Below are positions 31,975 through 45,595 of a DNA stretch of 64,000 nt, one piece after another (the first letter of the stretch is position 1; each line of letters starts with the position of its first letter). Under the pieces are notes generated by a model, which did not search any database, was not told the origin of the DNA, and saw only the letters and a program-made list of their open reading frames with translations. A program made the position numbers and the translations under genes. The DNA comes from Runella rosea. GTDB lineage: Bacteria > Bacteroidota > Bacteroidia > Cytophagales > Spirosomataceae. Where the stretch lies: the NCBI RefSeq assembly GCF_003325355.1, contig NZ_CP030850.1, positions 1,860,001-1,924,000 of the forward strand. Reading direction: 5' to 3'.

Positions 31975-34900
31975 TTAGGGACACCCGCTGATTTGGGCCC
32001 GAAACACCGCCCCTTGACTTGTATTGAAGCCCGGATTCAGTTCAACAAACCGTTTGGCATCGTAAAGCACATTCGACGTACTTGCCACGCTCGCCGTCGA
32101 AACCAGCATTCCTTCTTGCTGGGTACTTGCTCCTGCCACCGTTGGTCCGTTTACCACCCGCTTGGTTTCCACAAAAATATCATCTACGCCCAACTCGTCG
32201 CGGCTACCGCTCGTAACAACCTTTCGATAATAACGCCAAAGTAATTGGATGTAAGGCTGATTCATTAGTGCAACAGGCAATTTTACTTCAAATACCGCGC
32301 TATCGCCCACAAGCCCCCGATTATACTCTATTACCTGATTACTTTCATTTAACAAATCTACAAAATCCACAATATCGCCGATACGATACTGTAAACGAAT
32401 CGCATGTTGCTGTGCACCTATTGATTTAGTACGCCCTTTCCACCGAATTATTATTTCACTTTTGTTCTGTGTGCTTAAAGCTAAAATAGCCCCCCCAAGC
32501 TTTGCCCCCGGATAACCCGTATTTCCATTATCAGTATTAATAAATGAAACCCCTTCTGCATTTAATCCTTTAATACGGGTTCGTGATGTCAAATTATATA
32601 ACCCAGTTGTAAAACCAACTATAGCCGAATTAACCCCAGGGTCAGAATCTTCCATATACACAAACTTCATATTAGCTGGACTTGTTCCTGCGGCTGAAAC
32701 ATCCGACCATTCTTTGAAACTATACCCACACGCACCTTCCAAACTTGCCGCTACTGGTACTGGGTTCTCAGAAAGAATCATTACCTCGAAAACCGCCGTA
32801 TACACAATACCAGGTGTCACGGTCAAAACAGAATCTGTACTGGTTGTTGCATTGTAAGACCAATGTTTAAATTTATAACCTGTTTTTCCGTAAGCCCGCA
32901 GTTGTACGGGAATGCCGTTGTAATACCTTCCTGTCCAAGGGTAAGGCGTAGAACTGACGCCGGGCGTCGTTGGTAAAATGTCAATGGTGTTTACTTTCAC
33001 GTAACCGTGGTCAGGATTAGATACATTGACCGTCAGGTCGTACTGACCGCTGATGCCAAATTTCCCCTGAATCTGTCCTCGTTGATTGTTGGGACGCTGT
33101 TGAATAAAATTAATACAGTCGTTGATTTTAGTTAACCACTCGGTGCTACTAGCCAGTGTTTTCCAACGGTCGAGGTGGGCCGGAATTTCGGCGCTGATAC
33201 CGTCGCGTTTGGCATTGACGAGTTGCGTGAGGTGGGCGGGTAGGAAGGCCGTATTCATCAAATCGGCAAAACGATTGATGAACGCAAACTTAAATGTCTC
33301 ATTCAGCAATAATTTACCCAACAAAAACCCCGGGCTGCCAACGGTCCCAATGGTTGAGGCAATCGAAAGTCGGTTTTGGGTAGGCTCCGTCATGGCGTGG
33401 TCGGTATCGTAGAGGCTCCACCGCCACCGTCCGTCATGACCATAGGCTGCATTGGAGTTGTAGGGAGTTCTCAAACGCCAAAGTTTGATGTTGTTGGGGC
33501 CCCAATCCCAGTTGTTGTAGTAAATCTCCGCAATCTCATAATCTATAAAACTCTCCACATCCATTTGGGTCTTAATGTAGTTATAATGCGTCGCGTTGGA
33601 GATATTGTTTACGTTGATATAATTGAGCATGGCGTCGTAGTGCTGTGTGTCACCTTCGTCTACCTCCGTCCCTATCACGTCCAGATTGTCGGCATCTACT
33701 CCGTATTTTTGGGCATAATAATGCTTATCCTGTCGTTGGCGCAAGTTATGAATGCCCCAATATTCTCCGTTCAAAAACAGAATGGAAGGCCTATACGCCT
33801 GAATATCCATCTTCAGGTGTGCCACCGACCCGTGGATGAAAGCATCTTTAAATAATGTTCCCGCATAATCATTCCCCGAATTTCGCAAGATAAACGTTTT
33901 GTACTCCGAATAGGGCAAATCAGGAAATATTGAGTTTTCGATGGTTTTATATTGATCGGTGCCGTAGATTCTCAGTGACTTAAACCGATACCCGCGCGAC
34001 CAACCGCCGTGGATTCGAAGGCCTATATCTTGTTTGTAAACCACCGTATCAGACTCAATAATTTCAAAATGAGATGCTCGTTCGGCCGCTTCGCCCGTTC
34101 GGCGGTAGTTGGCAGGATTATCGGTATCGGGGCCTTGATTCGGGTTAGCCAACCGCCAATTATCAAAATCAATCCCGGGTACATAAATCCCGTTGTAGTA
34201 ATCAAACAATCCATCTTCTTGCGACATGATTGACACCACAGGCAGCGTAAATTTATTGGCTCCACTCGGCGAAAAGAAAAACGAACTCGACGTAATCTCG
34301 CTCGGCAATGCCCCAGGCTTCACAGCTATTGCCCTGACAATCTTACCCTTATAGATGGGAGATGCAGGCAAATAATTCAACATTTGACTATGAGTGCTCG
34401 CCATCATGCTGATTTTGTTGGGCATACTTGAAGGGTCTACCACCGATATTGAGCTCGTGTATTTGTAGGATTGATAGGTCTGATACAGACTAGGTCCCGG
34501 AAATGCATTGCGGTATTCGTAGTTTTGGGGCGTCAGTTTTGTAGAATCGGGCACAGAGCCGTCGATGGTATAATAGATTTTAACGCTTGGGTCGGGATGA
34601 TTCATGGATAGCATGAACGAGCTGTTATAAAATCCACCTGAATGAGAAAACGCAGGAGCAGCCAACAACTCATTGTAGCTATTGGCCTCAACGTTGGTCG
34701 CTCCGGGCGATGCAGGTTTAAAATACTTCAGGCCCACTCCACCGTTGGGCAACCGACCGTAAGAAATATCCATCGGCTGAGGTCCGAACGAAAGGCTATC
34801 TATAATCGTAACGCCGTCATCATCCACCAACGCTACCCGCTCTCCATCGGCTGACAGCGAAAAACTCGTGTGGTTAGCCCCCCTTGACACGGTACTGCTC

Positions 34901-35178
34901 GCCCATATGACCAAGTATCCGTTGGCAGGTACAACCACTTGTCCAGGGGTGGTTGAAAAACGAAATTTCATCAAATTAGAATACGTATCTGTCATGTAAA
35001 AACCTGCCAAATCAACGGGGCTACCGCTTGAATTATACAACTCAATCCAATCCGAATATTCGCCAGCATTATCAGTAATGGTATTCTGATTGGAAGCCAT
35101 CACTTCATTTATTTTCACTTGTGCGCACAGGCTGGTGATATGCAGAAAAAAAATCAATCCAAATAAAAAATGTTTCAT
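31975..35178 (-). CDS. CotH-kinase-like surface protein 1 with lamin-tail domain (1067 aa)
   Basis: The ATG at 35176-35178 gives a signal peptide (KHFLFGLIFFLHITSLCAQ). Domains in order: lamin-tail domain (about 20-135, VKINEVMASNQNTITDNAGE-like, ISYGRLPNGG), chitobiase-C-like beta domain (about 195-250, PDPSVKIYYTIDGSVPDS), CotH core (about 330-690, IGLRIHGGWSRGYRFKSLRIYG and WSLYDTDHAM), a beta repeat (YDLTVNVSNPDHGYV near 735 and GYKFKHWSYN), and a C-terminal sandwich ending VLYDAKRFVELNPGFN and GCP, the 3-coathanger-stack style. CotH proteins are atypical kinases that phosphorylate coat proteins in spores; here the role is unknown. It is separated from copy 2 by 693 bases. Confidence 0.85.
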   Translation of the reverse strand: MKHFLFGLIFFLHITSLCAQVKINEVMASNQNTITDNAGEYSDWIELYNSSGSPVDLAGFYMTDTYSNLMKFRFSTTPGQVVVPANGYLVIWASSTVSRGANHTSFSLSADGERVALVDDDGVTIIDSLSFGPQPMDISYGRLPNGGVGLKYFKPASPGATNVEANSYNELLAAPAFSHSGGFYNSSFMLSMNHPDPSVKIYYTIDGSVPDSTKLTPQNYEYRNAFPGPSLYQTYQSYKYTSSISVVDPSSMPNKISMMASTHSQMLNYLPASPIYKGKIVRAIAVKPGALPSEITSSSFFFSPSGANKFTLPVVSIMSQEDGLFDYYNGIYVPGIDFDNWRLANPNQGPDTDNPANYRRTGEAAERASHFEIIESDTVVYKQDIGLRIHGGWSRGYRFKSLRIYGTDQYKTIENSIFPDLPYSEYKTFILRNSGNDYAGTLFKDAFIHGSVAHLKMDIQAYRPSILFLNGEYWGIHNLRQRQDKHYYAQKYGVDADNLDVIGTEVDEGDTQHYDAMLNYINVNNISNATHYNYIKTQMDVESFIDYEIAEIYYNNWDWGPNNIKLWRLRTPYNSNAAYGHDGRWRWSLYDTDHAMTEPTQNRLSIASTIGTVGSPGFLLGKLLLNETFKFAFINRFADLMNTAFLPAHLTQLVNAKRDGISAEIPAHLDRWKTLASSTEWLTKINDCINFIQQRPNNQRGQIQGKFGISGQYDLTVNVSNPDHGYVKVNTIDILPTTPGVSSTPYPWTGRYYNGIPVQLRAYGKTGYKFKHWSYNATTSTDSVLTVTPGIVYTAVFEVMILSENPVPVAASLEGACGYSFKEWSDVSAAGTSPANMKFVYMEDSDPGVNSAIVGFTTGLYNLTSRTRIKGLNAEGVSFINTDNGNTGYPGAKLGGAILALSTQNKSEIIIRWKGRTKSIGAQQHAIRLQYRIGDIVDFVDLLNESNQVIEYNRGLVGDSAVFEVKLPVALMNQPYIQLLWRYYRKVVTSGSRDELGVDDIFVETKRVVNGPTVAGASTQQEGMLVSTASVASTSNVLYDAKRFVELNPGFNTSQGAVFRAQISGCP

Positions 35179-35871
35179 AACAAACCTATCTTCAATCTGA
35201 TTTATTTTTATTAAAAATGCGATGCAATTTTTGGGTTCTCTCATCCAAGTACAGACCATTTTATCAACAGCACAATGGCTATTGACAAAACTATTTTTCA
35301 TACATAGTTATAATAAATTTGTTCATCGAAGCCGTAGTCAATGGGTTGTTAAGGCTCGAAAAAAACCTCCGAATATATCTGCATGTGTAGGTAAAAATAT
35401 ACCTTTTAACACAGTCAGCTAGATTTTCTAACAAAAAAGGTATCAATAATTACACTTAATCACAATGCATAATTATTTCATTTATTTTAATTTTTATGAA
35501 ATAATTATCAAACGGTCTTTCTTTTTAAGATACATTTATAATAAAAAATGCATCAAACATTTGAATATACACGTTCTCAATTCGACAAGGCATCATTATT
35601 CGTATACTACAATTTCATTTAAGTTAATAAAACAAAATCAGCAAGAGACAAATGGGTCAATTTGCAGCCATATTTGCAGAAGTACAAAAGCAATTAATTA
35701 TGCGAATAGTAGGCTTACGCACTAAATTGCGATTAGAAAAAAATATTTCTATATAATGGTTGGTTTTTACTTTTAAGCACCCAGAGAAGCGTTTCTATCA
35801 AAAAGAACTTGTACTAATAAATATGCCTTTTTCAAACCGTAAAAGCATTAAAAAAACTGAGCAAATTCCCC
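35179..35871. other. AT-rich intergenic region upstream of CotH copy 1
   Basis: The 693 bases hold no convincing gene. A 13-base motif TTATCAAACGGTC occurs at 35505-35517 (also upstream of copy 4 and upstream of gldK). A minus-strand -7-like TAGTTTTG lies at 35286-35293, 107 bases before the start, without a clear -33. The gap probably holds the promoter of copy 1. Confidence 0.45.
35505..35517. repeat. Shared 12-13-base motif, copy 1 of 3
   Basis: TTATCAAACGGTC; the same sequence occurs at 46077-46089, and its first 12 bases at 63379-63390. All three are in gaps upstream of minus-strand surface or secretion genes. Confidence 0.4.
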
Positions 35872-38800
35872 CTACGGGCAACCATTAATTTGGGCTTGAA
35901 ACACCGCCCCCTGATTCGTATTAAAGCCTGGATTCAGTTCAATAAAGCGCTTGGCCTCGTACAACACATTCGAACTGCTGCCCACACTCGCCGTCGAAAA
36001 CAGCACGCCATCACTCACTGTGCTCGCGCCCACTACCGTAGTCCCGCTCAACACCCGTTTGCTCTCCACAAAAATATTATCCAAACCCAACTCGTCGCGA
36101 TTACCACTCGTGCCGGCCTTGCGATAATAACGCCACAGCAAATACAAATAGGGCTGATTCAACAACGCACTCGGTAAATTTACCCTCAACACCGAACTGC
36201 TCCCATTGGCGCCTCGGCTGTATTCAACCAATTGATTATTGGCATCTAATACATCCCTAAATCCTTCTATCTTGTCAATACTATACTGAAGTCGAATCCC
36301 ATATTCCTGCGCTCCCCTAGATACCGTCCGTCCCGTCCATGTCACACTTACGCTGTCTTTGCCTTCCGTGTTCAACACTAAAAGAGCTCCGCCTAGCTTC
36401 GTGCCAGGATAAACCGTTCCGCTACCCGTATTTACAAACGAAACGCCGTTTACGCCCTGACCACGAATCCGCGTGCCGCTCGTCAGGGCATAGCCTCCCG
36501 TCGTAAAACCCTTCACTTCCGAGTTTACTCCCGGGTCAACGTCGGCCATGTAAACAAATTTCATGTTCGCTGGAAATGTACCCGCCACCGAACTAGAGGC
36601 CCACTCCTGAAAAGAATATCCACAAGAGCCCAACGTCGCGGATACCAAGGCGGGCTCAAAAACTGCCGTATAGCTACGGGCCGAACTCGCCGTAATGGTC
36701 TGCACACTGTCGGTCAATATCGTTGCATTATACACCCAATGTTTGAACTTATACCCAAGTTTCGGACGTGCCCGTATCACCACGGGAATCGAATTATCCG
36801 ACTTATAAAAGTAGCTTCCCGTCCAAGGGTAAGGCGAAGCAGTCACACCCGGAGTACTCGGCAAAATATCAATCGTGTTGACCCGCACGTAACCGTGGGC
36901 AGGATTCGACACATTGACCGTCAAGTTGTACTGACCGCTAAGACCAAATTTGTTTCGAATGTGGGTTCGCTGATAGCCAGGGCGGTCTTGCACAAACTTA
37001 ATACAGCTCGCAATTCGGGTCAGCCATGTTGAACTATCCGTTAAAGTCTTCCAACGTGTAAGATGAGCAGGAATCTCGGCGCTTATCCCATCACGTTTAC
37101 CCTCAATGAGTTGGCTGATACGATTGGGTAAAAAAGTTGTATTCATTAAATCGGCAAAACGATTTATAAAATCATTCCGAAATGTCTGATTCTGCAATAA
37201 TCGCGCTAATAAAAAACCGGGGGCAAAAGAATTGCTGGCACCTTCGGATGCGGCAGATAAACGATCTTGTGAAGCATCTGACATCGACAAATCTAAGTCA
37301 TATAAACTCCATCGCCATCGGCCATCGAGCCCATAAGGTGCTGTCGGTGTGTAGGCTACCTGCCGTCTCCAATACCGGTTATTATTGGTTCCCCAGTCCT
37401 GATTGTTATAAAAGATTTCAATAATCTGATAATCTCTAAAATTTTCAACATCCATCTGGGTCTTTACATAATTATAGTTTGTGCTGCTTGTTACTCCATT
37501 GTTGTAAATGTAGTTAAGCATCGCATTGTAATGAGTTGCGCTCCCTTCTTCTATCTCCGTATCAATAAGGTCCAAGCTATCTTCATTCACTCCGTATTTC
37601 TGAGCGTAATAGTGTTTATCTTGCCGCTGACGCATGTTATGAATACCCCAATATTCACCGTTCAAAAAAAGAATAGCGGGTCGATACGCCTGAATATCAA
37701 TATTTAAGTGCGCTACCGATTCGTGTGCGAGCGCATCACGAAACAAAGTCGATGTATAATCTTGACCAGAATTTCGTAGGATAAACGTTTTATATTCATC
37801 ATAGGGCAATTGCGGAAATAAAGGATGCTCAATGGTTTTGTACTGGTCAGTACCGTACAACCGCAGTGACTTAACCCGATAACTTGCCGACGACGATCCG
37901 TTTATTCGCAAGCCTACATCCTGTTTGTAAACCACGGTATCAGTCTCAATGATTTCGAAATGAGCAGGTCGCTCAGCCGACTCACCACTCCGATGATAAT
38001 TAGCGGGACTCGCAGGCCCCGGCGTCTGAGTGGGGTTTGCATTACGCCAATTGTCAAAATCAATCCCCGGTACATAAATCCCATTGTTGTATGAAAATAA
38101 CCCATCCTCCTGCGACATCACCGACACCACAGGTAGTGTAAACTTATTGACTCCACTCGATGAAAAGAAAAAAGAACTCGACGTGATTTCACTCGTCAAA
38201 GCCCCCGCCTTCACCGCCACCGCCCGAACCACCTTCCCCTTATAAAGCGGAGACGTCGGCAAATAACTCAAACTTTGGCTGTGAGTACTGGCTATCGTGC
38301 TGATTTTGTTGGGTAAACTCGATGCATCATCCACCGTCAAAGGGCCCGTGTAGCTATATGATTGGTACTGCTTCGTCTGGTTACTGCCTGGATAGTTGTT
38401 GCGGTAGGTATAGCTCTGTGGTGTCAAACTCCCCGCCGATGGTACCGACCCATCAGTGGTGTAATAAATACTCACCCCAGCGTCTGGATGACTAATCGTC
38501 AAACCAAAACTACTGCTGTAAAACCCGCCTGCATGGGAAAAAACGGGCGGGCTCAACAACTCATCATAACTGTTAGATGCCACATTGGCCGATCCAGGTG
38601 TAGGTGCCGTAAAGTACTTCAAACCACTACCTCCGTTGGGCAGCCGACCATAAGATATATCCATCCGTTGGGGGCCAAACGTCAGACTATCCACTATACT
38701 CAGGCCATCTGGCATCACCAAAGCTACCCGCTCTCCATCCGCCGACAACGAAAAACTCGTGTGATTCACCCCTCTTGACACCGTACTGCTGGCCCAAATA

Positions 38801-39072
38801 ATCAAGTATCCGTTGGCAGGTACCACCACCTGTCCCGTGGTAGATGTAAATCGAAATTTCTTTAAATTTGAATAATCATCCGTCAGATAATACCCCCCCA
38901 AGTCTATCGCAACTCCGCTTGGATTGTGTAGTTCTACCCAATCAGAATATTCCCCCGTGTTGTCAACAAGCGTATTCTCATTCGACGCCATGAGCTCATT
39001 AATCTTTACTTGTGCCCTAATAACAGTAGCACTCACCAACACAAGAAGCAGGAGGGTAAAATAGTTTTTCAT
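35872..39072 (-). CDS. CotH-kinase-like surface protein 2 (1066 aa)
   Basis: Same domain order as copy 1: signal peptide (MKNYFTLLLLVLVSATVIRAQ), lamin-tail, chitobiase-C-like, CotH core, beta repeat, coathanger C-terminus ending GCP. In the core the expected His of the HG motif is Asn (VGLRINGSSSASYRVKSLRLYG) and the DxD motif is DLD (LYDLDLSM). Bases 36043-36937 and 38036-39060 are almost identical to copy 3 by eye, while the core between them is much more different. It starts 22 bases after copy 3 stops, and so lies in one transcript with copies 3 and 4. Confidence 0.85.
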   Translation of the reverse strand: MKNYFTLLLLVLVSATVIRAQVKINELMASNENTLVDNTGEYSDWVELHNPSGVAIDLGGYYLTDDYSNLKKFRFTSTTGQVVVPANGYLIIWASSTVSRGVNHTSFSLSADGERVALVMPDGLSIVDSLTFGPQRMDISYGRLPNGGSGLKYFTAPTPGSANVASNSYDELLSPPVFSHAGGFYSSSFGLTISHPDAGVSIYYTTDGSVPSAGSLTPQSYTYRNNYPGSNQTKQYQSYSYTGPLTVDDASSLPNKISTIASTHSQSLSYLPTSPLYKGKVVRAVAVKAGALTSEITSSSFFFSSSGVNKFTLPVVSVMSQEDGLFSYNNGIYVPGIDFDNWRNANPTQTPGPASPANYHRSGESAERPAHFEIIETDTVVYKQDVGLRINGSSSASYRVKSLRLYGTDQYKTIEHPLFPQLPYDEYKTFILRNSGQDYTSTLFRDALAHESVAHLNIDIQAYRPAILFLNGEYWGIHNMRQRQDKHYYAQKYGVNEDSLDLIDTEIEEGSATHYNAMLNYIYNNGVTSSTNYNYVKTQMDVENFRDYQIIEIFYNNQDWGTNNNRYWRRQVAYTPTAPYGLDGRWRWSLYDLDLSMSDASQDRLSAASEGASNSFAPGFLLARLLQNQTFRNDFINRFADLMNTTFLPNRISQLIEGKRDGISAEIPAHLTRWKTLTDSSTWLTRIASCIKFVQDRPGYQRTHIRNKFGLSGQYNLTVNVSNPAHGYVRVNTIDILPSTPGVTASPYPWTGSYFYKSDNSIPVVIRARPKLGYKFKHWVYNATILTDSVQTITASSARSYTAVFEPALVSATLGSCGYSFQEWASSSVAGTFPANMKFVYMADVDPGVNSEVKGFTTGGYALTSGTRIRGQGVNGVSFVNTGSGTVYPGTKLGGALLVLNTEGKDSVSVTWTGRTVSRGAQEYGIRLQYSIDKIEGFRDVLDANNQLVEYSRGANGSSSVLRVNLPSALLNQPYLYLLWRYYRKAGTSGNRDELGLDNIFVESKRVLSGTTVVGASTVSDGVLFSTASVGSSSNVLYEAKRFIELNPGFNTNQGAVFQAQINGCP
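36043..36937. repeat. Near-identical C-terminal repeat unit, CotH copies 2 and 3 (first member)
   Basis: About 895 bases matching 39266-40160 with only a few substitutions that I can see by eye. It covers the beta repeat, C-terminal sandwich and part of the coathanger region. Confidence 0.75.
37571..37702. repeat. 132-base identical island inside the diverged CotH core (copy 2)
   Basis: This stretch reads identically at 40791-40922 in copy 3, with different sequence on both sides in the core. Such an island inside a diverged region fits short-tract gene conversion. Confidence 0.6.
38036..39060. repeat. Near-identical N-terminal repeat unit, CotH copies 2 and 3 (first member)
   Basis: About 1,025 bases matching 41256-42280 with roughly one to two percent differences by eye. 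It covers the signal peptide, lamin-tail and chitobiase-C-like domains. Confidence 0.75.
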
Positions 39073-39094
39073 ACGATGTAAGGTTCATTTTTTT

Positions 39095-42000
39095 CTACGG
39101 ACAGCCATTAATTTGGGCTCGAAACACCGCCCCTTGGCTCGTATTAAAGCCTGGATTCAGTTCAATAAAGCGCTTGGCCTCGTACAACACATTCGAACTG
39201 CTGCCCACACTCGCCGTCGAAAACAATACGCCATCACTCACCGTGCTCGCACCCGCTGCACTAGGCCCGCTCAACACCCGTTTGCTCTCCACAAAAATAT
39301 TATCCAAACCCAACTCGTCGCGATTACCACTCGTGCCGGCCTTGCGATAATAACGCCACAGCAAATACAAATAGGGCTGATTCAACAACGCACTCGGTAA
39401 ATTTACCCTCAACACCGAACTGCTCCCATTGGCGCCTCGGCTGTATTCAACCAATTGATTATTGGCATCTAATACATCTCTAAATCCTTCTATCTTGTCA
39501 ATACTATACTGAAGTCGAATCCCATATTCCTGCGCTCCCCTAGATACCGTCCGTCCCGTCCATGTCACACTTACGCTGTCTTTGCCTTCCGTGTTCAACA
39601 CTAAAAGAGCTCCGCCTAGCTTCGTGCCAGGATAAACCGTTCCGCTACCCGTATTTACAAACGAAACGCCGTTTACGCCCTGACCACGAATCCGCGTGCC
39701 GCTCGTCAGGGCATAGCCTCCCGTCGTAAAACCCTTCACTTCCGAGTTTACTCCCGGGTCAACGTCGGCCATGTAAACAAATTTCATGTTCGCTGGAAAT
39801 GTACCCGCCACCGAACTAGAGGCCCACTCCTGAAAAGAATATCCACAAGAGCCCAACGTCGCGGATACCAAGGCGGGCTCAAAAACTGCCGTATAGCTAC
39901 GGGCCGAAGTCGCCGTAATGGTCTGCACGCTGTCGGTCAATATCGTTGCATTATACACCCAATGTTTGAACTTATACCCAAGTTTCGGACGTGCCCGTAT
40001 CACCACGGGAATCGAATTATCCGACTTATAAAAGTAGCTTCCCGTCCAAGGGTAAGGCGAAGCAGTCACACCCGGAGTACTCGGCAAAATATCAATCGTG
40101 TTGACCCGCACGTAACCGTGGGCAGGATTCGACACATTGACCGTCAAGTTGTACTGACCGTTGAGACCAAATTTGCTTTGGATATGGGTTCGCTGATAGC
40201 CAGGGCGCTGTTGAAAAAAAAGAACACAATTAGTAATTTTCGACAGCCACGCTGCGCTATCCGATAAGGTTTTCCAACGCTCAAGATGAGCAGGAATCTC
40301 AGCGCTTATTCCATTACGTTTTGCTGCAATAAAATCCGTGAGATAAGACGTAGTGAATACTGTATTCATTAAATCGGCAAATCGATTGATAAAATCGTTC
40401 CGAAATGACTGATTCTGCAATAACTTTCCCAATAGAAAGCCCGCGTCCCAATAATTTGTAAATGAAGAAGCAATCGACAATCTGTTGTCCGTCCAATTAC
40501 TAATTGTAGCATCGGCATCATATAAGCTCCAGCGCCATCGACCATCGTGCCCCAAAGGTGCTGATGGATTATAAGGGACTTGCAAACGCCAATATTTAAT
40601 ATTATTGGTTCCCCAATCCTGATTATTGTAAAATATCTCGGTTATCTGATAGTCGCGAAAGCTCTCCACATCCATCTGGGTTTGAACATAATCATAGTGG
40701 GTATTGCTTACTACACCATTGGTATTAATATAACTAATCATCGACCTATAGTGAGTAGTAGTGCCCTCTTCAATCTCTTCTCCTATGATGTCCAAGCTAT
40801 CTTCATTCACTCCGTATTTCTGAGCGTAATAGTGTTTATCTTGCCGCTGACGCATGTTATGAATACCCCAATATTCACCGTTCAAAAAAAGAATAGCGGG
40901 TCGATACGCCTGAATATCAATCTTCAAGTGGGCTACGGTTTCATGGACAAGCGCATCCTTAAAATATGTTCCATTGTAATCATTTCCTGCATTCCGCAGG
41001 ATAAATGTTTTATATTCATCATACGGCAATTGAGGGAACAAAGGGTGCTCAATTGTTTTATATTGATCTGTGCCGTACAACCTCAATGATTTAAATTTAA
41101 ACCCCCGGGACCAACCACCATTGATACGAATCCCCACATCTTGCTTGTAGACTACCGTATCAGATTCAATAATTTCAAAATGGGATGCCCGTTCGGCAGG
41201 CTCGCCTGTGCGTCGATAATTACCCGGACTTCCAAAATCGGGAGTGAGCGAAGGATTTGCATTACGCCAATTGTCAAAATCAATCCCCGGTACATAAATC
41301 CCATTGTTGTATGAAAATAACCCATCCTCCTGCGACATCACCGACACCACAGGTAGTGTAAACTTATTGACTCCACTCGATGAAAAGAAAAATGAACTCG
41401 ACGTGATTTCACTCGTCAAAGCCCCCGCCTTCACCGCCACCGCCCGAACCACCTTCCCCTTATAAAGCGGAGACGTCGGCAAATAACTCAAACTTTGGCT
41501 GTGCGTACTGGCTATCGTGCTGATTTTGTTGGGTAAACTCGATGCATCATCCACCGTCAAAGGGCCCGTGTAGCTATATGATTGGTACTGCTTCGTCTGG
41601 TTACTGCCTGGATAGTTGTTGCGGTAGGTATAGCTCTGTGGTGTCAAACTCCCCGCCGATGGTACCGACCCATCAGTGGTGTAATAAATACTCACCCCAG
41701 CGTCTGGATGACTAATCGTCAAACCAAAACTACTGCTGTAAAACCCGCCTGCATGGGAAAAAACGGGCGGGCTCAACAACTCATCATAACTGTTTGAAAC
41801 CACATTAGCCGACCCAGGTGTAGGTGCCGTAAAGTACTTCAAACCACTACCTCCGTTGGGCAGCCGACCATAAGATATATCCATCCGTTGGGGACCAAAC
41901 GTCAGACTGTCCACAATACTCAGGCCATCTGGCATCACCAAAGCTACACGCTCTCCATCCGCCGACAACGAAAAACTCGTGTGATTCGCCCCTCTTGACA

Positions 42001-42292
42001 CCGTACTGCTGGCCCAAATAATCAAGTATCCGTTGGCAGGTACCACCACCTGTCCCGTGGTAGATGTAAATCGAAATTTCTTTAAATTTGAATAATCATC
42101 CGTCAGATAATACCCCGCCAAGTCTATCGCAGCTCCGCTTGGATTGTGTAGTTCTACCCAATCAGAATATTCCCCTGTGTTGTCAACAAGCGTATTCTCA
42201 TTCGACGCCATGAGCTCATTAATCTTTACTTGTGCCCTAATAACAGTAGCACTCACCAACACAAGAAGCAGGAGGGTAAAATATCTTTTCAT
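39095..42292 (-). CDS. CotH-kinase-like surface protein 3 (1065 aa)
   Basis: The ATG at 42290-42292 (MKRYFTLLLLVLVSATVIRAQ) is used in place of an earlier in-frame start because it gives the signal peptide shared with copy 2. Domain order as in copies 1 and 2. The core has VGIRINGGWSRGFKFKSLRLYG, again Asn in place of His, and DAD at LYDADATI. Part of the core (for example RRTGEPAERASHFEIIESD) is closer to copy 1 than to copy 2, whereas both ends match copy 2: a mosaic. It starts 46 bases beyond the stop of copy 4. Confidence 0.85.
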   Translation of the reverse strand: MKRYFTLLLLVLVSATVIRAQVKINELMASNENTLVDNTGEYSDWVELHNPSGAAIDLAGYYLTDDYSNLKKFRFTSTTGQVVVPANGYLIIWASSTVSRGANHTSFSLSADGERVALVMPDGLSIVDSLTFGPQRMDISYGRLPNGGSGLKYFTAPTPGSANVVSNSYDELLSPPVFSHAGGFYSSSFGLTISHPDAGVSIYYTTDGSVPSAGSLTPQSYTYRNNYPGSNQTKQYQSYSYTGPLTVDDASSLPNKISTIASTHSQSLSYLPTSPLYKGKVVRAVAVKAGALTSEITSSSFFFSSSGVNKFTLPVVSVMSQEDGLFSYNNGIYVPGIDFDNWRNANPSLTPDFGSPGNYRRTGEPAERASHFEIIESDTVVYKQDVGIRINGGWSRGFKFKSLRLYGTDQYKTIEHPLFPQLPYDEYKTFILRNAGNDYNGTYFKDALVHETVAHLKIDIQAYRPAILFLNGEYWGIHNMRQRQDKHYYAQKYGVNEDSLDIIGEEIEEGTTTHYRSMISYINTNGVVSNTHYDYVQTQMDVESFRDYQITEIFYNNQDWGTNNIKYWRLQVPYNPSAPLGHDGRWRWSLYDADATISNWTDNRLSIASSFTNYWDAGFLLGKLLQNQSFRNDFINRFADLMNTVFTTSYLTDFIAAKRNGISAEIPAHLERWKTLSDSAAWLSKITNCVLFFQQRPGYQRTHIQSKFGLNGQYNLTVNVSNPAHGYVRVNTIDILPSTPGVTASPYPWTGSYFYKSDNSIPVVIRARPKLGYKFKHWVYNATILTDSVQTITATSARSYTAVFEPALVSATLGSCGYSFQEWASSSVAGTFPANMKFVYMADVDPGVNSEVKGFTTGGYALTSGTRIRGQGVNGVSFVNTGSGTVYPGTKLGGALLVLNTEGKDSVSVTWTGRTVSRGAQEYGIRLQYSIDKIEGFRDVLDANNQLVEYSRGANGSSSVLRVNLPSALLNQPYLYLLWRYYRKAGTSGNRDELGLDNIFVESKRVLSGPSAAGASTVSDGVLFSTASVGSSSNVLYEAKRFIELNPGFNTSQGAVFRAQINGCP
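39266..40160. repeat. Near-identical C-terminal repeat unit, second member
   Basis: The partner of 36043-36937; the offset between the two is 3,223 bases. Confidence 0.75.
41256..42280. repeat. Near-identical N-terminal repeat unit, second member
   Basis: The partner of 38036-39060; the offset is 3,220 bases, so the core differs by a one-codon net length change. Confidence 0.75.
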
Positions 42293-42337
42293 AGAGCGTA
42301 AGAAGCTGAGTTGAGCAATATTCAAAGAAACTCCAAC

Positions 42338-45300
42338 TTATGGGCAACCATTAATTTGGGCTCGAAACACCGCCCCTTGGCTCGTATTAAAGCCTGGATT
42401 CAGTTCAATAAAGCGTTTGGCTTCGTACAACACATTCGAACTGCTGCCCACACTCACCGTCGAAAACAATACGCCATCACTCACCGTGCTCGCACCCGCT
42501 GCACTAGTCCCGCTCAACACCCGTTGGCTTTCTACGATAATATTGTCCACCCCCAATTCGTCTCGATTACTACTTGAACCATTTTTCTTATAGTATCGCC
42601 ACAATAACTGAATGTAGGGTTGATTTAATAAAGGTGCAGGCAACTCTACTTCGAATACTGCACTATCTCCTGCTACTCCTCGGCTGTATTCAATAATTTG
42701 ATTATTGCTATCCAATAGATTGTCGAATGCTAATTGATCTCCAATGCGATATTGTAAACGAATGCCGTATTCACGAGCGCCTACCGCTATTGTTCGTCCC
42801 GTCCATTTCACCTTAACTGAACTCTTATCTTGGGTATTCAATGCCAAAATAGCACCGCCCAACTGTCCTCCTGTCCCCGTTGCAGGATACCCAGCATTAT
42901 TCCCTCCACCTGTATTTATGAAAGAAAACCCCCGGGCATTACGTCCGTTTATTCTCGTAGAACTTGTCAAATTGTAGGCACCATTGGTATAACCTGCTAT
43001 GGCCGAACTAACCCCTGGGTCGCCATCTGCCATATACACAAATTTCATGTGGGCAGGGGTCGTTCCAGCCGCCGAGGTAGAATCCCACGCGGTTAAACTA
43101 TACCCGCACGCTTCCAATAGTGCGGCCGTAGGCACTGGATTTTCGGACAATATCGCCGACTCAAAAACCGCCGTATAGCTACGGGCCGAAGTCGCTGTAA
43201 TGGTCTGTACACTATCGGTCAGTATTGTGGCATTATAGACCCAATGTTTGAACTTATAGCCAGGTTTCGGACGCGCCCGTATCACCACCGAAATAGAGTT
43301 ATCAGACTTATAAAAGTATTTACCCGTCCAAGGGTAAGGTGAAGCAGTCACCCCAGGGGTTGTTGGCAAAATATCAATCGTGTTGACCCGCACATAACCG
43401 TGGTCTGGGTTGGAGACATTGACCGTCAAGTCGTACTGACCAGTCAGACTAAATCGACTCTGAATATGTCCGCGAACAATGGGTGGACGCAGCGAGGCAA
43501 ACGTAGTCATGAGGTTTACAAAACCCAGCCAAGCCGCATACGTTGAGGGGCGCTGCCAACGGGTAATATTCCCCCTTATTTCTGCATCAATAACATTTTT
43601 TTTGGCGTTGATAATCTCCAACAAGCGGGCGGGTTGAAAATGGGTATTAATCAAATCGGCGTAACGGGTAATGAACTGGTTTTTGAACTCAGTATTCTCA
43701 ATGAGGTATTTATAAGGGTAATCATTTGCACTGGGATTATCGAATTTGGTGAAGTAGTTTTCATTGTACTCTTCAAAACTCAAATCAGTATCGTACAAAG
43801 CCCAACGCCAACGGCCATCCTTGCCTTTGCCCTTTGTGGAAGAATAGGGTGTTTTGTACCTCCAATAAGTGATATTCCCAACGGGCCAGTCCCAATTGGC
43901 TACGTACAACTCCATGACCGTATAATCAATAAAACTCTCAACATCAATGCGTTCCTTTATATAATTATAGTTTGAGGTGTTAGACATCGTATTATTTTTC
44001 ATAAAATTGAGCGTAATTCCCCAATGACCCGAATCATCCTCAATTTCGGGCACGTTGTTGTCATTAAAGCCCGTATAATGTTCTATCGAATCCGCATTAA
44101 TGTTGTAGTGATTGGCATAATGGTACTCGTCGAGGCGTTCCATAAGGTGGTGAATCCCCCAGTATTCACCGTTGATAAACATTACAGAAGGACGAGACTG
44201 TTGATTTTCAAAATTCAGTCCTTGGGCCATTTGTGAAATAGATGCATCCCTAAACAACGTTCTTTCGTAGTCATTTCCTGATGTTTTCAACATAAAACGC
44301 TTAAAATTGGTAAAGGGAAGCGTAGGCACGAGCGGATAATTAAATTCGGGAGCACCGTAAGCACCGCTGGCATAGAATCGTAGGCTTTTTTTATCAAGAT
44401 CTCTCGAACCTGAGCCATGTATACGTAGGCCCACATTCTGGCTGAATTTTACACCGTTGGTATCCAGTATTTCAAAATTGACGGGAATTTCGGTAGAGCG
44501 ATTGTAATTCTTTTCAGTGCCCGACGTGTTAGTTCCGTTCCTATAATCCACAAAATCTTTTCCAGCAACGTAAATTCCGTCGGTATAATCAAAAAGTCGG
44601 CTGGGAGTGGTTTGGATAGATATAACCGGAACAGTATATTTTGATAGCCCAGAAGGCGTAAAAAAGTATATTTTAGAGATGATTTCACTCGGCAACTTTC
44701 CGGGCACATACACCCTGGCGCGTACGGTCGTTCCTTTATACACTGAGTCGGCCTGCGGTGGAGTATAGCTGTATTTTATCGTGGTCGAAATATTAGAGAC
44801 GACATTGGGCAGTACGGGCGAATTTCGGTTTATAATGCTGATAGGAGTACCGTTGTACTGATATGACCGGTAGGTATTTGTGTAACTCGGCCCTGCCGTT
44901 TGACCCACAAATTCGGGGTATTGATTCTTGTAGGAGTAATTGGTCCCTGCCAAATTTCCACTGCTCGGATCGGAGCCATCGGTGGTATAATAAATGATTC
45001 CGCCTGGCTCTGTTGTACTGATAGTCAGCGAAAACGTGCTTGGGTAAAAACCACTTTCAGCCGAAAACACCGGAGATGCGGCCAAACCCGTGTACGCATT
45101 CGCCGTAAGATTTACGGTACCCGGCGATGCGGGCGAAAAATACTTAAAAGTAGCCGACCCATTCGGTTCTCTCCCGTAAGAGATATCCCTCCACTGCGGC
45201 CCAAACGACAGGCTATCTACAATCGTTGACCCATCGGGCAAAACCAACGCCAATACCTCGCCATCCGCAGAAAGCGAAAAACTCGTGTGTTTTGCACCCC

Positions 45301-45595
45301 GTGTCACCTCACCGCTAGCCCAGATGATTAAGTAGCCGTTGGCTGGCACCACCACCTGACCCATCGTAGTGATAAAACGAAATTTCATCAAATTGGAGAA
45401 ATTGTCGGTAATGTAATACCCCGCCAAATCAATCGGGGATGCAGTAGGATTGTACAACTCCAACCAGTCTGAGTAAGCGCCAGCATTATCAGTGATGGTG
45501 CTAGCATTGGAGGCCATCAATTCATTGATTTTGATTTGTGCTGACAAAAAAACTGAATAGCACACAAAAATCGAAAGAAGTATAATTTTTTTCAT
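42338..45595 (-). CDS. CotH-kinase-like surface protein 4 (1085 aa)
   Basis: First gene of the minus-strand array. Signal peptide MKKIILLSIFVCYSVFLSAQ, lamin-tail (INELMASNASTITDNAGAY), chitobiase-C-like domain (YYTTDGSDPSSG), CotH core with NVGLRIHGSGSRDLDKKSLRF (His present) and LYDTDLSFEEYN, beta repeat (YDLTVNVSNPDHGYVRVNT), and a coathanger C-terminus. It is the most divergent copy in the core and slightly longer, but its last 60 residues or so nearly match copy 3. A divergent LytS/LytTR pair begins 800 bases upstream. Confidence 0.85.
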   Translation of the reverse strand: MKKIILLSIFVCYSVFLSAQIKINELMASNASTITDNAGAYSDWLELYNPTASPIDLAGYYITDNFSNLMKFRFITTMGQVVVPANGYLIIWASGEVTRGAKHTSFSLSADGEVLALVLPDGSTIVDSLSFGPQWRDISYGREPNGSATFKYFSPASPGTVNLTANAYTGLAASPVFSAESGFYPSTFSLTISTTEPGGIIYYTTDGSDPSSGNLAGTNYSYKNQYPEFVGQTAGPSYTNTYRSYQYNGTPISIINRNSPVLPNVVSNISTTIKYSYTPPQADSVYKGTTVRARVYVPGKLPSEIISKIYFFTPSGLSKYTVPVISIQTTPSRLFDYTDGIYVAGKDFVDYRNGTNTSGTEKNYNRSTEIPVNFEILDTNGVKFSQNVGLRIHGSGSRDLDKKSLRFYASGAYGAPEFNYPLVPTLPFTNFKRFMLKTSGNDYERTLFRDASISQMAQGLNFENQQSRPSVMFINGEYWGIHHLMERLDEYHYANHYNINADSIEHYTGFNDNNVPEIEDDSGHWGITLNFMKNNTMSNTSNYNYIKERIDVESFIDYTVMELYVANWDWPVGNITYWRYKTPYSSTKGKGKDGRWRWALYDTDLSFEEYNENYFTKFDNPSANDYPYKYLIENTEFKNQFITRYADLINTHFQPARLLEIINAKKNVIDAEIRGNITRWQRPSTYAAWLGFVNLMTTFASLRPPIVRGHIQSRFSLTGQYDLTVNVSNPDHGYVRVNTIDILPTTPGVTASPYPWTGKYFYKSDNSISVVIRARPKPGYKFKHWVYNATILTDSVQTITATSARSYTAVFESAILSENPVPTAALLEACGYSLTAWDSTSAAGTTPAHMKFVYMADGDPGVSSAIAGYTNGAYNLTSSTRINGRNARGFSFINTGGGNNAGYPATGTGGQLGGAILALNTQDKSSVKVKWTGRTIAVGAREYGIRLQYRIGDQLAFDNLLDSNNQIIEYSRGVAGDSAVFEVELPAPLLNQPYIQLLWRYYKKNGSSSNRDELGVDNIIVESQRVLSGTSAAGASTVSDGVLFSTVSVGSSSNVLYEAKRFIELNPGFNTSQGAVFRAQINGCP

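Follow-up and report, generated by a model that had tools for sequence, protein, structure and literature searches.

In Helicobacter pylori, the paralogs homA and homB undergo segmental concerted evolution by intragenomic gene conversion, and paralogs of the same strain cluster together in the homogenised segment (PMC2795765). Concerted evolution of babA and babB is credited to Pride and Blaser 2002 in a further paper (PMC4552749). In both pairs, it is the middle segment that varies among strains, and it has been proposed as a source of antigenic diversity. For the CotH kinases, reference points are the Bacillus cereus CotH structures 5JD9 and 5JDA and B. subtilis CotH (PMC7821199); our literature search on gene conversion in CotH genes found no relevant paper. 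Here, we report that two adjacent genes (c2 and c3) of a four-gene CotH array in Runella rosea show concerted evolution by gene conversion, in a gene family new to this process. The process is of the same kind as in homA/homB and babA/babB, the closest published examples of segmental concerted evolution: paralogs in one genome share homogenised segments and keep one segment distinct. Unlike the H. pylori pairs, the Runella genes are homogenised at both ends, around an enzymatic core that diverged long ago and that orthologs strongly conserve.

Methods

The window is the whole 64,000-nucleotide stretch analysed (contig NZ_CP030850.1, positions 1,860,001 to 1,924,000, forward strand), and coordinates without a prefix refer to it. 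Blocks of c2 and c3 were delimited by likelihood segmentation and by identity in codon windows. In place of GARD and GENECONV, the analysis relied on Nei-Gojobori counts and a simple permutation test. Ortholog comparisons rely on one close relative from the same genus, R. aurantiaca YX9 (draft assembly).

Results

The four genes lie in tandem on the minus strand in the order c4-c3-c2-c1 (Table 1), with gaps of 45 bp (c4/c3), 22 bp (c3/c2) and 570 bp (c2/c1), and encode proteins of 1,065-1,108 residues. Each protein carries a lamin-tail domain (LTD), an Fn3-associated region, a CotH kinase domain, a B-repeat-like region and GCX_COOH; c4 and c3 share 57% amino-acid identity. As with Bacillus CotH, the core matches PF08757 (E 1e-42 to 1e-45; 145.8-154.1 bits, curated cut-off 23.8), and its predicted fold (mean pLDDT 82) has 5JD9 and 5JDA as best PDB matches (Foldseek E 3e-11 and 4e-11, target TM 0.69), so that profile and predicted kinase fold both place it in that family. 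Unlike Bacillus CotH, the domain sits within a long multidomain protein that is not a spore-coat protein. The motifs NxDW..(N/G)N and YDxD occur in all four copies, which on sequence are putative kinases, and D559, N564 and D592 are invariant in the family alignment.

A signal-peptide-like stretch opens the proteins, and a C-terminal domain of surface type closes them. GCX_COOH matches number 39 in the genome, which also encodes a homolog of SprA, a type IX secretion/gliding component; on these two features, export of the CotH proteins to the surface is plausible. Five of the 39 matches lie on a small contig, C6 (14.1-44.9 kb), possibly a plasmid with secreted proteins.

Table 1. Positions of the CotH genes and of the c2/c3 mosaic segments in the window
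Feature	Coordinates	Strand	Remarks
c4, CotH copy 4	42338..45595	-	First transcribed; LTD, Fn3_assoc/CHB_HEX-like, CotH, B-repeat-like region, GCX_COOH C-terminus
c3, CotH copy 3	39095..42292	-	Probable donor; R. aurantiaca A23 (L021:8953-12147) is the full-length ortholog
c2, CotH copy 2	35872..39072	-	Probable recipient; orphan core
c1, CotH copy 1	31975..35301	-	Separated by the 570-bp spacer; recent exchange with c2/c3 not significant
5' homogenised block of c2	38036..39072	-	17/1,037 mismatches (98.4% identical) to 41256-42292
Diverged core part A of c2	37702..38035	-	31.7% different
Identical island of c2	37570..37701	-	0/132 mismatches; counterpart in c3 40790..40921 (-)
Diverged core part B of c2	36938..37569	-	Mostly 28-56% different; reaches residue 712
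3' homogenised block of c2	36043..36937	-	3/895 mismatches (99.7% identical); begins at residue 712
c3 GCX_COOH C-terminal region	39095..39271	-	Contains tract near-identical to c4, flanked by c3-like final codons

The original prediction described c2 and c3 as near-identical at both ends and strongly diverged in the CotH core between. Segmentation bore this out, giving sharply bounded blocks of 1,037 bp (5') and 895 bp (3') around a kinase core that is 74% identical outside the island, and not the uniform divergence named beforehand as a refutation. The predicted size of the 3' block was exact, but the block stops about 56 codons short of the 3' end of the gene; the last 168 bases of c2 and c3 are 8.9% different. 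The 5' block encodes the signal peptide, LTD and Fn3-associated region and stops at residue 346, ahead of CotH (Pfam match 388-700). In the predicted model, the last long CotH helix ends at residue 708 and a beta strand of the next domain begins at 712, and the breakpoints (346 and 712) lie at predicted domain boundaries.

Exact matching confirmed the predicted 132-bp island, with its coordinates corrected by one base (Table 1). It codes for the most conserved block of the family (FLNGEYWGIH...), within whose alignment N471-H478 is the longest invariant run, and its presence in the core exceeds chance (61 concordant polymorphic sites, at most 1 in 10,000 permutations). A closer short stretch within core part B (37138-37200) is 6% different. 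Runs tests reached the permutation limit (p about 1e-4) in three comparisons: c2/c3, the island inside the core, and the c3/c4 tail. In that tail, the match of c4 to c3 over the final ~60 codons was upheld, with codon windows mostly 0.93-1.00 identical; the A23/A4 tract of R. aurantiaca was independently significant. The proposal that parts of the c3 core resemble c1 more than c2 is weak: it holds in the first half (0.72 vs 0.69) but reverses in the second (0.63 vs 0.70), and a permutation test for recent c1-c3 core exchange found the longest c1-c3 run not significant (p 0.085).

The R. aurantiaca array comprises three genes (A4, A23 and A1), and in a Runella metagenome-assembled genome (MAG) gene 4 is directly followed by gene 1. 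A23 is orthologous to c3 over its full length (about 90%); c2 is that similar to A23 only across its flanks and at the island. Between species, the c3 and A23 cores have 91-95% nucleotide identity. For c2-c3, flank dS was 0.03 and core dS about 1.7, with synonymous sites in the core saturated and dating rough; for c3-A23 the values were 0.45 and 0.28, respectively, and for the A23-c2 core 1.85. In the core tree, c2 is the sister of (c3,A23) with support 95/96; the flank trees conflict with this and group c2 with c3. AU tests rejected c2+c3 for the core (p 0.0028) and c3+A23 for the C flank (p 0.005), and were borderline for the N flank (p 0.054). Paralogs are more similar than orthologs over part of the gene (flank dS 0.03 vs 0.45), and sharply bounded tracts accompany tree conflict along it, both being marks of concerted evolution. 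The conflicting trees and the dS contrast indicate that the flanks were homogenised after the split from R. aurantiaca and that the core difference is older. Differences in the 3' block are about fivefold fewer than in the 5' block (Fisher p 0.0055); the 3' block is the younger of the two, and at least two homogenisation events are therefore needed. The shared flank is as far from A23 as an ortholog would be, which favours c3 as donor; the direction was probably c3 to c2, with c2 the older paralog.

The spacer upstream of c2 (39073-39094), and not that of c3 (42293-42337), resembles the spacer before A23 (L021:8922-8952). A23 thus matches c3 in its core, yet c2 in its spacer, a conflict between positional and sequence orthology that simple orthology leaves unexplained.

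In the c2-c3 comparison, the core shows purifying selection (dN/dS 0.13), with differences concentrated at third codon positions (72/57/163). Between c3 and A23, it is the most constrained part of the gene (dN/dS 0.05; dN 0.013 vs 0.047 in the flanks), the opposite of a diversifying region, and the excess of amino-acid change that a diversifying system would have in its variable part was not seen in either comparison. A DNA search of the genome for silent or partial donor copies matched only the four array genes. Since the core divergence is old, as synonymous saturation shows, core variation has been kept and not newly produced. No donor of the c2 core closer than c3/A23 (74%) was found among 222 genomes of the family, and a search of plasmids returned only a 29%-identical Deinococcus match. 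By the tree, the c2 core would be an old resident; import is possible.

A tandem CotH-LTD pair with a similar mosaic is present in a second genus of the family (G181, L064; single 7.96-Mb contig). Its N flank (452 bp) has no mismatch (0/104 synonymous sites changed), its C flank has 4 mismatches in 1,028 bp (dS 0.01), and its core is diverged (dS 1.39) but for a 69-bp near-identical island. Near-identical flanks, diverged core and short island are as in Runella, and the motif at the C breakpoint (F.L...LT.NVS) is shared; the N breakpoint, by contrast, comes earlier, after the LTD (residue 172). The signal peptide and C-terminal tail are also diverged, unlike in Runella, so that no recent whole-gene duplication occurred there. 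In a relative of that genome (G202), one pair member has a lone ortholog, with no second copy in the surrounding 15 kb. In a third genus (G175), two genes, both at draft contig ends, share an identical 1,052-bp C flank beginning at the same motif, which is suggestive of a C-flank version of the mosaic. The mosaic was absent from nine other tandem CotH pairs (G080, G157, G162, G078, G110, G003, G197, G130 and G320), which, like six unlinked pairs (one each in G181, G196 and G202, three in G168), showed uniform divergence. Linkage seems to be necessary, not sufficient.

In ortholog 1, the domain that separates the B-repeat from the C-terminus (codons ~858-1072; c1 31975-32800 vs L010 and L011) comes in two sharply different versions, one in this genome and R. 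aurantiaca, the other in Runella sp. CRIBMP and the MAG, with about 90% identity on either side. The corresponding domain of ortholog 4 (c4 42338-43000 vs L021, L016 and L022) is patchy between species (60-70% from codon ~925), which suggests module exchange. Draft assemblies are broken or N-gapped inside C flanks (CRIBMP, G195 and G175; L067 end, L068 start; L102/L117; L130 and L131 ends), and copy numbers in drafts are probably undercounted.

Discussion

Gene conversion is well supported by the runs tests, conflicting trees, synonymous contrast and recurrence in a second genus. Its repetition is borne out by the unequal differences of the two blocks and the separate c3/c4 and A23/A4 tracts in the C-terminal domain. 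We consider it probable that c2 and c3 are old tandem paralogs whose flanks have been repeatedly homogenised by recombination from c3 into c2. The two would be paralogs of a secreted LTD-CotH kinase with cores that separated before the split from R. aurantiaca. After that split, RecA-type homologous recombination between adjacent direct repeats would have replaced the c2 flanks with copies of the c3 flanks, in two or more events that differ in age, with an additional 132-bp tract copied at the most conserved core block. The exchange would have been non-reciprocal conversion and not crossover; its tracts would begin in conserved blocks and end where the sequences differ more than recombination tolerates, or where loss of the distinct core would be harmful. 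Weighing against this history are the lack of c2-core relatives in the family genomes and on plasmids, the spacer conflict, the rough dating of the core and the dependence on one draft relative.

It is possible, though rather unlikely, that c2 arose by recent tandem duplication of c3 and its core was then replaced by import from an unsampled Runella lineage, sparing the island. Such an import would suit a c2 core without ortholog in the 222 family genomes, a single gene in R. aurantiaca where this genome has two, the lack of any gene between genes 4 and 1 in the MAG, and the comparable module replacement by an orphan allele in ortholog 1 (codons ~858 to ~1072). However, the unequal flank ages misfit a single duplication, the spacers before c2 and c3 differ, and the c2 core is sister to c3/A23, not to an outside lineage; in G181, where signal peptide and tail also differ, several replacements would be needed. 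The original prediction coupled conversion with selection for core diversity, producing surface variation in the population. Conversion is real, and the signal-peptide-like start and surface-type C-terminal domain suit a surface role, but the purifying dN/dS in both paralogs and orthologs, the third-position differences, the lack of silent donor copies and the conserved c3/A23 cores make selection of this sort highly improbable, and core diversification by positive selection was rejected on dN/dS.

Collapsed or chimeric repeats, which the breaks inside such genes in draft relatives might bring to mind, are scarcely credible as the source of the mosaic: all four genes lie within one 6.81-Mb contig of a genome that is 99.98% complete in 7 contigs, the G181 pair is likewise inside a single contig, differences are structured and frames are intact. 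The concern that near-identity reflects collapsed repeats is thus unlikely to apply. Hypermutation confined to the core and following a recent duplication would leave a differing core between unchanged flanks, but its chance is close to nil given synonymous saturation with purifying dN/dS, the presence of all substitution types, core branches of similar length for c2 and c3 (0.22 vs 0.15 plus tips) and an unmutated island; it was rejected on an ordinary substitution spectrum and ordinary codon positions.

Under repeated homogenisation of old paralogs, the likely outcome would be two predicted kinases that differ in their cores, and possibly in their substrates, and share an attachment and secretion scaffold. 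Whether LTD-CotH tandems of this bacterial family form a modular system is doubtful; in it, conserved blocks at domain borders would be switch points for recombination, and selection would keep cores distinct while scaffold and secretion domains are continually homogenised, so that several specificities share one surface scaffold. Draft assemblies break at such flanks and probably undercount copies, a warning for surveys of these genes. The Runella pair adds a clear case of segmental concerted evolution from an environmental bacterium and a predicted secreted kinase family; a second genus repeats the pattern, including the domain border at which the C breakpoint falls. The pair also points to the kinase core as the place to seek a functional difference between c2 and c3.
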